Assembly (NCBI GenBank): GCA_017540175.1
Contig: JAFYBN010000055.1
Span: 1 to 53,544, forward strand
Origin: Clostridia bacterium
GTDB lineage: Bacteria; Bacillota; Clostridia; Oscillospirales; CAG-272
DNA length: 53,544 nt
Reading direction: 5' to 3'
Shown here: one piece after another, positions 30,180-40,006 of the stretch
Layout: every line of letters begins with the position of its first letter
How positions within the stretch are numbered: the stretch's first letter is position 1
The notes under the pieces: generated by a model
The model's database searches: none
The model's input: the letters and a program-made list of their open reading frames with translations, nothing else
Told to the model about the DNA's origin: nothing
Program-made: the position numbers and the translations under genes

Positions 30180-30312
30180 TTTGGGATTGTCTGATCGGAC
30201 TGCGCCGTGCTTGAGTGGAGTCTGCTGAACCCGCAACAAAGGGAATGCTGTCCCTTGCCTCGCCGGCGCGACTGCCGTGGCGACGCTGTCGCACTCAGCG
30301 CGCGGGAGAGGT

Positions 30313-30334
30313 GGCACCGTCGTTAGACGGTGCC
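30313..30334 (+). repeat. Outer-module hairpin of element A
   Basis: GGCACCGTC-GTTA-GACGGTGCC is a perfect 9-bp stem followed by GGAGAGGGCTTTTTGG. The same module lies at 39835-39862 in element B on the other strand. It resembles a terminator with a weak T tract. Confidence 0.7.
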
Positions 30335-30405
30335 GGAGAGGGCTTTTTGGAAACAAACGCTTCGCGTTTGGGAGACGGATTCAAATTGCCCTGCGCGGGC
30401 GGCGA

Positions 30406-30442
30406 CCGGGGGGCACCAGCTCAGGCCGCAGGTGCCCCCCGG
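30406..30442 (+). repeat. Variable hairpin, left arm of element A
   Basis: CCGGGGGGCACC pairs perfectly with GGTGCCCCCCGG around the loop AGCTCAGGCCGCA. The equivalent hairpin in the right arm has a different stem but the same loop. Confidence 0.85.
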
Positions 30443-31203
30443 TGGGGTCCCCTTGGCCATCCAATCTGTTGTTCTTGATACTCAGAAGCGGCTCCGATTC
30501 GTTTGCGGCACATATCAGCCGAAACTCAAAGCGACTGCGGCTCTCGAATCGTCAGCTGAAACTTTGCAATTCGCGCTCGCGCGAATTGCTGCGATCCAAA
30601 TTCGCGAATTACATGGCGCGGTTGGCTGTCAGCGGTGGTTGAAGTGCGTCTTCGCGAACATGGCGTCAGCTATAATCTGCTAAACCTGTTACCGTTTCAG
30701 CGCGACGATTTGTTCAGCCTTCGCCACTCGTATTGCGAACGCGGGTAGAGAATCCTGCGAAGCCGCGTTAAATCGAGTACCTGTTTTTGCTTCAGTTATT
30801 GCGTATCGCGAGAATGAAATGCGGCGCAGAATACGTCACTCTACAGCACTGCATCCCATTCTCGTGACAGCTAACTTAAAGGTTCGCTGAACTGTCACGC
30901 GGCTCCGCAGGATTTTCTACCCGCGTTAGCTGCGCGAACAGAAACGACATTACTTCACATGCGCTGAAACGGAAACAGGTTTAGCAGATTTCAGCAGACA
31001 TACACTCGCGAGGATGCACTTTAAACGTAAGCTGACAACCAAACGCGCCGTGTAATCAAACGCGCTCGTCTTCACGAAAAACTATGGCTTCAAGTAATCA
31101 GGCCGCGATGAAATGCTATATTCTACAGCTAACTCCGTGCGCTTTGCAATCGGAGCCGCTTCAGAGGATCAAGAACGACAGATTGAGTGGCCAAGGGGAC
31201 CCG

Positions 31204-31238
31204 CACAGAGGGGCTGCGGCCTGAGCTGCCCCTCCGTG
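31204..31238 (-). repeat. Variable hairpin, right arm of element A
   Basis: Read on the minus strand, CACGGAGGGGC pairs with GCCCCTCTGTG (one G-T pair) around the loop AGCTCAGGCCGCA, identical to the loop of the left arm. Confidence 0.85.
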
Positions 31239-31413
31239 CCGCCGCCCGCGCAGGGCAATAAATCGTTCCCAAACGCGTAGCGTTTGTTCCAAAGACGACT
31301 CGCGGTTTCAGCAAATTCCATTATAGAACACGCGGTTTCCGCAAAACTCCGCCATACAGCCTGCCCCGCGGGGCATTTTTCCTCCCCGCTCCGCGTTTTT
31401 CGAAAAATCCCTC

Positions 31414-38625: not shown

Positions 38626-38832
38626 GTCGTCCGGTTTCAAGCCCCGCGCTGCCGCGGCATGACTGACATGACTGCGTCGGCACGCGTGACGGAGAGGACC
38701 TTTTGGAACAAACGCTGCGCCCGAGTTCGCTTCGCGAACTCGTGGAATTCGCGCGCAGCGCGAACTTCCGTGTTTGGGAGACGGATTCAAATTGCCCTAC
38801 GCGGGCGGCGACCTGCGCGACTGCGTCGGCGC

Positions 38833-38883
38833 GGGGCACACATCTCATGGCCGACTGCTTTCGCGAAGCGAAAGCGGTGCCCT
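38833..38883 (+). repeat. Variable hairpin, left arm of element B
   Basis: GGGGCAC pairs with GTGCCCT (a G-T pair at its base) around a loop holding TCTCATGGCCGACTG and an inner CTTTCGC/GCGAAAG stem. The right arm has the same loop. Confidence 0.75.
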
Positions 38884-39058
38884 CCCCGAGGGTCCCCTTG
38901 GCCATCCAATCTGTGCTCCTATCATCACCGAAGCGGCTCCGCCGGTGCAGCTTCACTCCTCTCCCCTATTCAGCGATACTTGTCGGCGAACAGCAATTGT
39001 CAAGGGGACTGGACTTGAACAGATTCAGCGCGAACTAAATACTCTGCAGCCGAAACTT

Positions 39059-39084
39059 GGAAATTCGCGCCCGCGCGAATTTCC
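39059..39084 (+). repeat. Inner hairpin of element B left arm
   Basis: GGAAATTCGCG pairs perfectly with CGCGAATTTCC around CCCG. The same hairpin in element A (30566-30589) reads GCAATTCGCG and CGCGAATTGC: a C-G pair replaced by A-T. Confidence 0.8.
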
Positions 39085-39568
39085 TCATGCGCTCATAAAC
39101 GCGCATTACACAGGCGCGTTCAGCTTCAGCGTCATCGCTCAACAGCCTCGCGCACATGGGGGCAGCTATAATCTGCTGAAACGCGAACAAGTTCAGCAGA
39201 CTACCGCAAACTCAAATTCGCGAAGACGCACGTCGACTTCCACTGACAACCAAACGCGACCTGTAATCAAACGCGTTCGTCTTCACGAACGGCATCAGCT
39301 TCAAGTAATCACTCCGCGCTGAAGCGCGTTAATTCTCCGCACCGCATCCCATTCTCGCGACAGCATCAGCAAAAATAATGAGCGCTTTACCGCGGCTCCG
39401 CAGGATTCCTCGCCCGCGTTCGCTAAACGAACAAAGATAACAGCACCTCGCGCCGCGCTGAAACGCGGACAGGTTCAGCAGATTTCCGCCGACATACATC
39501 CGCGACACTGCACTTCGACTTCCGCTGACTGCCAAACGCGATGTGTAATTCGCGAATTTGGATCGCGG

Positions 39569-39591
39569 CAATTCGCGCGAGGCGCGAATTG
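39569..39591 (-). repeat. Inner hairpin of element B right arm
   Basis: CAATTCGCG and CGCGAATTG form a perfect stem around CGAGG; it corresponds to the hairpin at 30566-30589 in element A. Confidence 0.75.
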
Positions 39592-39713
39592 CAACGTTTC
39601 AGCTGACGATTCGAGAGCCGCAGTCGCTGAAAGTTTCGGCTGATGCCGTGCGCTTCGCTGTCGGAGCCGCTTTTGAGGATCAAGAACAATAGATTGGATG
39701 GCCAAGGTGACCC

Positions 39714-39770
39714 GCACGGGGCGCCACTTTCGCTTGCGAAAGTAGTCGGCCATGAGATGGCGCCCCGTGC
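39714..39770 (-). repeat. Variable hairpin, right arm of element B
   Basis: GCACGGGGCGCCA pairs perfectly (13 bp) with TGGCGCCCCGTGC around a loop with TCTCATGGCCGACT (minus strand), the same loop as in the left arm. Confidence 0.85.
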
Positions 39771-39834
39771 CGCCGCCCGCGCAGGGCAATACAAATCCGT
39801 AATTCTCAAACGCGAAGCGTTTGTTCAAAAATGC

Positions 39835-39862
39835 CCTCTCCGTCACCGTCTCACGACGGTGC
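39835..39862 (-). repeat. Outer-module hairpin of element B
   Basis: On the minus strand this is GAGGTGGCACCGTCGTGA followed by GACGGTGACGGAGAGG; compare 30313-30334 in element A. The stem GCACCGTC/GACGGTGA is slightly decayed. Confidence 0.6.
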
Positions 39863-40006
39863 CACCTCTCCCACGCGCCAAGTGCGACAGCGTCGGCACG
39901 GCAGTCGCGCCGGCGAGGCAAGGGGTCAGCATTCCCTTTGGTGCGGTTTCCGCAGACTCCATCAAGGACCGCGCGGTTTCATCCGCCCCCGCGCACGGCT
40001 CTGCCG

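Follow-up and report, generated by a model that had tools for sequence, protein, structure and literature searches.

The analysed stretch (hereafter the window, 53,544 nucleotides) lies on contig C24 of a draft genome of 3.9 Mb in 125 contigs, from a rumen-type Oscillospirales bacterium. Genes related to the hisS of this genome are mostly from MAGs labelled Ruminococcus, Clostridia or Oscillospiraceae, many of them from ruminant guts. The window holds two copies of a gene-less repeat. Copy A sits between two genes read in the same direction, which we take to be larC and hisS, and a promoter-like sequence can be recognised by eye between it and hisS. The second copy borders a presumed mazF. These names, and those of mutS and mutL below, were assigned by reading the sequences and not from database matches, and are our assumptions.

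The original prediction placed at the first site a non-coding palindrome of 1.1 kb (30217..31319) with paired ends, and supposed that it was recent, mobile or useful. The palindrome is real: the left half aligned to the reverse complement of the right half with a local score of 181, against 24.4 ± 3.8 (maximum 35.5) for 200 dinucleotide shuffles. This alignment, which runs from about 30333/31305 inward to about 30828/30846, has 363 identities in 433 aligned positions and a further 89 gap positions. The arms were recovered independently by the repeat search (e.g., 30445-30499/31148-31202, 91%), and the RNA fold of 30345-31295 has an energy of -545.5 kcal/mol, compared with -324.7 ± 8.4 for 20 shuffles (z = -26). 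The proposed limits do not hold, because the palindrome proper covers only about 30345-31295 (Table 1). The roughly 90 bases to its left belong to a separate small repeat, found at nine other loci without the palindrome, and on the right an extra U3-like copy begins beyond the proposed end. The outermost 18-mers do pair at 15 of 18 positions, as claimed; they are copies of a module, GGAGTCTGCTGAAACCGC, that matches 40 places in the genome with at most two mismatches (none for the reversed-pattern control). The modules U3, U1 and U2 are inverted between the two ends of the element, which thus has terminal inverted repeats. Copy A consists almost wholly of long inverted repeats, a foldback-like make-up that does not extend to every species: the four loci compared in genome G024 have only one U1/U2 end.

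Table 1. Positions of the two repeat copies and their parts in the window.
Feature	Position	Strand	Basis or remark
U3 end module, left, outermost	30217..30234	+	GGAGTCTGCTGAAACCGC with 1 mismatch
Separate small REP-like repeat between U3 and hairpin end	30252..30342	+	Whole or partial in L038-L046 without palindrome
Palindromic element proper, copy A	30345..31295	.	Repeat listing, half alignment, BLAST, RNA fold
U1 terminal hairpin, left	30354..30370	+	Stem 7, loop TTC (other strand GAA); sequence letters and family statistics
U2 hairpin, left	30388..30400	+	GCCC-TGCGC-GGGC; sequence letters and family statistics
U2 hairpin, right, inverted	31244..31256	-	Sequence letters and family statistics
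U1 terminal hairpin, right, inverted	31270..31286	-	+ strand loop GTA; sequence letters and family statistics
U3 end module, right	31302..31319	-	Followed by another U3-like copy at about 31328-31346
Second copy (subfamily II), between presumed mazF-like gene and convergent gene	38690..39832	-	Sequence comparison
Small repeat and U3 module, right end of second copy	39840..39960	-	Sequence comparison and module search

The copies fall into two subfamilies with common ends and different middles. The larger pieces of other copies are about 72-83% identical to copy A in direct orientation, and the arms of copy A are 68% identical to each other (BLAST). With copies about 20% and arms about 30% divergent, this is not a recent perfect palindrome, and the suggestion of recency is not supported. 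The second copy (38690-39985) carries an extra inverted block in its middle. One block of subfamily II (38942-39166, about 225 bases), matched at L020, L021, L022, L024, and L031, differs much less between copies than the rest does (68-96% of columns invariant, per 50), as if it had spread or been converted recently. One of its 29-mers gives 11 genome-wide matches at up to three mismatches.

The absence of coding capacity was confirmed. Variable sites show neither codon-position bias nor periodicity: the counts for the three positions are 84/98/93 in set A2 (4 copies), 145/128/145 in A3 (6 copies), and 117/137/133 in A1 (9 copies, some partial, including the four of A2). The length of most gaps among copies is not divisible by three. 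No Pfam match at the cut-off was obtained for five of the longer open frames; below it there were two weak ones (MIT and CdiI_N). A protein-coding origin was thus rejected: several copies have long open frames, yet the variable sites lack codon periodicity and the five frames examined have no Pfam match at the cut-off.

The repeat belongs to a family with many members. Searched against its own genome, the whole stretch gave 162 local matches, for which 40 of the 68 candidate places were scored, and 38 stretches around such matches were compared. Counting the two in the window, twelve copies at separate places escape truncation by a contig end. Among 295 genomes sampled from the GTDB family, the core or ends were found in five, including the own genome, and all belong to one genus (E-value 1e-6). 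At an E-value of 0.001, 7 of 59 relatives match, two of them weakly, and none of 34 genomes outside the genus does. The relatives match the window's copy through the end modules; its full core was seen only in its own genome. The exact end hairpin AAACGCTNCGCGTTT occurs 43 times in the own genome and 64, 58, 44, and 49 times in the other four of the five rich species. Elsewhere in the genus it is found 19, 3, and 1 times (G003, G016, and G019) and is absent from the other 17 of the 25 genomes; the reversed control is absent from all 25. In an unrooted tree of nine species (two genes, 416 columns), the five rich species are split from G003, G011, G012, and G019 with support 0.988, and G003, with its 19 hairpins, falls on the other side. 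As the tree is unrooted, it does not prove that the rich species form a clade. Inside their common ends, the cores differ among most carrier species. In G024, 26 copies match each other's core over most of its length (78-88%), whereas matches in other species cover only part of it; G018 and G006 share longer core stretches (71-80%). A search of viral contigs with two longer family patterns found none, and a 17-mer pattern hit four. Of the 40 places with U3, 38 lie in stretches already read for the family and two in its short forms. No gene-bearing form with the same ends, i.e., no autonomous parent, was noticed in the U3 stretches of this 125-contig draft.

The prediction that the element looks mobile is supported by its multiple copies and by orthologous sites filled in one species and empty in another. 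Upstream of mutS, G006 has a 0.7-kb copy between the preceding gene and mutS where G018 has about 72 bp between matching flanks. A second such site is in G002: a copy of about 0.6 kb separates a -10-like box from the leader of a gene, and six bases stand in its place in G006 and G018. On a G006 contig (L249), four family stretches were compared with G018, counting only matches above 100 bp: a homologous copy is present at one (mutS-mutL), none at two (one of which has about 3 kb of other DNA between the flanks), and one is undecidable. With G002, the comparison gives a copy at one, none at one, and two undecidable. The homologue in G018 and the core common to G006 and G018 indicate that some copies persist through speciation. 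Target-site duplications could not be read at the empty sites (mutS and the G002 leader), the intergenic DNA being too diverged. In none of eight relatives does the DNA directly behind the presumed mazF that borders the second copy match the window's copies, and in G006 a short match lies about 740 bp further on; this search used the window sequence only and could miss a copy whose core differs and whose ends are worn. No larC match was found at 12 hisS loci (L047-L056, L072, and L074; two with less than 1 kb upstream), nor a hisS match in the examined DNA next to nine larC loci of the genus, so there is no orthologous larC-hisS junction to compare. As the ends are not sharp and have other small repeats at or in them, some of the gain may be local growth of modules.

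With gene orientations called by a simple in-house codon score, 23 of the 26 copies of G024 with both neighbours called lie between co-directional genes (13 in ++ and 10 in --), two between convergent and one between divergent genes; a 27th has one called neighbour. The 12 copies of the own genome comprise 4 convergent, 5 co-directional, 2 divergent, and 1 undecided.

Of the original prediction, the paired ends matter most, but not by pairing with each other: instead, small local hairpins lie inside each end. U1 has a 7-bp stem and a 3-base loop, and U2 a 4- to 5-bp stem and a 5-base loop. We counted them by regular-expression searches that fix part of each hairpin and leave the tested positions free. 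One stem position of U2, in 105 modules from five species, is T·A in 54, C·G in 40, G·C in 6, A·T in 1, T·G in 3, and G·G in 1. It is thus Watson-Crick in 101 of 105 modules, against 46.5 expected if the two bases were independent, and all four Watson-Crick types are seen. The loci were mostly chosen because they bear the family, and the copies share ancestry, so these counts are not independent events; even so, four pair types at one position require several independent changes. The outer pair of U1, counted in 85 hairpins, is C·G in 44, G·C in 40, and A·C in 1; the second pair forms in 83 and the inner tested pair in all 85 (68.9 expected). The U1 loop is T-N-C in 92 of 93 cases, with a variable middle base (T 35, G 26, A 20, C 11). 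A freer search that accepted any hairpin upstream of U2 gave a best hairpin with a T-N-C loop in 66 of 94 cases, the others being neighbouring or nested hairpins. The 27 copies of G024 are also predicted to fold mostly into local hairpins: among 2340 cells of 88 predicted pairs, 78 are doubly changed and 55 broken.

The long arms behave differently. Arm-to-arm pairs were taken from the consensus, favouring neither strand, because in counts on RNAalifold structures G·U outnumbered A·C for either strand, as expected of a structure that favours G·U on whichever strand is folded. Double Watson-Crick changes between arms number 6 in A2 (7.8 cells expected under independence), 11 in A3 (15.6 expected), and 11 in A1 (11.3 expected). 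G·U and A·C amount to 46/49, 65/57, and 50/60 pair types in A2, A3, and A1, none of them a significant difference, or to 50/54, 101/78, and 63/84 cells. On the four copies of A2, RNAalifold returns a covariation term that is unfavourable, with double changes at 12 of 304 pairs. If the arms were a message folded as RNA, one strand should favour G·U; with neither this bias nor an excess of compensatory changes, the giant hairpin is not what is maintained, and the suggestion of a useful giant hairpin or cruciform is not supported. The long RNA hairpin was rejected on the same counts. The end hairpins are therefore maintained through compensatory change and the long arms are not. The family thus separates two things that are usually confounded, a large palindrome and small end hairpins, and the arms look like a decaying inverted duplication.

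We observe, in summary of these comparisons, a multicopy and non-coding repeat with conserved end hairpins, unconserved arms, presence or absence at orthologous sites, and near-restriction to a few species of one genus. Our best reading of copy A is that it is one of dozens of hairpin-ended repeats without genes, which have been gained and lost at intergenic places in a few related rumen bacteria. We lean, with moderate confidence, towards a non-autonomous mosaic mobile repeat. Each element would be built of U3 modules (often in tandem), U1 and U2 hairpins, a long body, and the same ends inverted. The body probably originated as an inverted duplication; it would bear no message, and its palindrome would decay with the age of the copy. 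New copies would arise in intergenic DNA by transposition, the putative cause of the gains, and an enzyme acting in trans would recognise the ends in their folded form, probably when replication exposes single-stranded DNA. A constant loop on a stem that is free to vary while pairing suggests recognition of shape in single-stranded DNA. On the complementary strand T-N-C reads G-N-A, which makes a GNA triloop, and DNA mini-hairpins with such loops on G-C stems are described as extraordinarily stable (PMC4686876). The DNA and RNA energy models give GNA and TNC loops equal energies, so that these parameters speak neither for nor against the argument, which draws on that source and on the conservation of the loop.

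The main rival, possible although we rather doubt it, is a mosaic akin to BIMEs that grows in place. Small palindromes would duplicate, invert, and convert by template switching during replication, and homologous exchange would spread the blocks, with no real transposition. Strand switching corrects quasi-palindromes, and short hairpins would then stay perfect. The mosaic blocks among copies, the end hairpins nested in hairpins, the variable number of end modules, the tandem palindromic array (3.9 x 102 bp) upstream of mutS in G002, and the lack of a link to a transposase all agree with this account. It is at odds with the finding of complete elements (0.6-0.7 kb) where sister species have an empty site, and local growth alone does not explain how dozens of unrelated loci came by the same ends.

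That the element is retained because it serves the cell as a large structured non-coding RNA, or as a long double-stranded RNA, is disfavoured and in our view improbable. The very strong fold (z = -26) and the compensatory changes in the local end hairpins would suit it, as would the lower variation of paired than unpaired columns in G024 (0.068 vs 0.256, for a structure predicted on the same data) and the G002 copy just behind a -10-like box. This copy (L253, about 95-1090) lies between the box and the gene start and would be transcribed as a leader. The arms, however, have no compensatory excess and no significant G·U preference, and the RNAalifold covariation is unfavourable. At the Rfam gathering cut-off the window matches nothing; five lower-scoring matches, with E-values of 1 to 4.8, are at chance level. 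The core differs among most carrier species, copies occur in both orientations relative to genes, and the many copies per genome turn over.

Still less probable is a role as DNA sites whose palindromes a nucleoid or segregation protein would need. The copies are intergenic and numerous, and in 21 of 27 G024 loci (L182-L208) a sequence to the left of the core, TTTCACGTGAAA, resembles what we take to be parS, the ParB site. This sequence is nevertheless absent from the window and from all 40 of the own-genome family loci checked, other genomes of the genus have part of its surrounding stretch as a separate repeat, and the family is confined to few species. An assembly or amplification artefact, such as a chimeric inverted join, is for practical purposes refuted: many copies lie at contig ends, as is usual for repeats, but with 68% identity the arms have diverged, the copies are spread over many loci, and five different genomes contain related elements.

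The nearest known kinds are REP/BIME repeats and MITEs. The element shares with the REP/BIME/REPIN sequences that go with RAYT the intergenic location, the many copies, the short hairpin units, the inverted pairs, and the mosaic clusters, but is about 1 kb long where those units have 20-40 bp. By eye, no constant GTAG or CGTC tag was found at the foot of U1 in 57 end modules; GGAA or a similar sequence mostly precedes it. The RAYT/IS200-type Y1 transposase (Y1_Tnp, PF01797) was detected in 8 of 25 genomes of the genus and in none of the five carriers; the control ring gave 5 of 14. Carrier assemblies are 78-94% complete, so that it could be missed in one but is unlikely to be missed in all, and RAYT was rejected as the mover. 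MITEs are gene-less and intergenic, with inverted ends and many copies, and all this applies here. The differences are that the body is itself a decayed palindrome, that the ends are conserved as local hairpins and not only as sequence, that target duplications are unreadable at the diverged sites, and that no autonomous parent was met in the U3 stretches. Foldback-type elements, known from eukaryotes, have very long inverted repeats that make up nearly the whole element, as here, but in our family the long repeat is not maintained. Palindrome-associated elements derived from IS200/IS605 have subterminal hairpins as likely recognition signals; in our family the hairpins of one end are inverted relative to those of the other, and none of the five carriers yielded the Y1 transposase. 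The closest parallel for many short hairpins with no known enzyme is given by the CGTC-tagged REPs, which are described as apparently lacking a dedicated transposase (PMC3733652). They differ from our much larger composite, where by eye there is no CGTC tag beside U1, and the five phyla named for them there do not include Firmicutes (PMC3733652). Among the open-licence papers listed by our literature searches, none appears to describe this repeat family.

A bolder version, which we regard as unlikely, is that these elements are a new class of bacterial mobile DNA. Their ends would be read as folded single-stranded GNA-triloop hairpins by an enzyme other than the known Y1/HUH kind, and the kilobase palindrome would be a by-product that may aid the extrusion of the ends. 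Palindromes of kilobase size are usually regarded as unstable in bacteria, yet in several species of this genus many imperfect ones survive and turn over. The conserved GNA loop on its variable but pairing stem provides a concrete bait for a missing enzyme.

Some smaller structures accompany the family. Two short gene-less forms (L241:770-1030 and L242:940-1140) consist only of end modules and the small repeat, the second with a 35-nt hairpin arm at 97%. The array upstream of mutS in G002 (L254:49-450) has 3.9 palindromic units of 102 bp and takes up the same intergenic space as the G006 element; in G018 this space is short. Finally, the left flanks of many G024 elements (L183-L205) contain runs of short degenerate repeats, e.g., GGCTAGTGGCTAGT and GAGGAGTTAGGAGTGAGGA.
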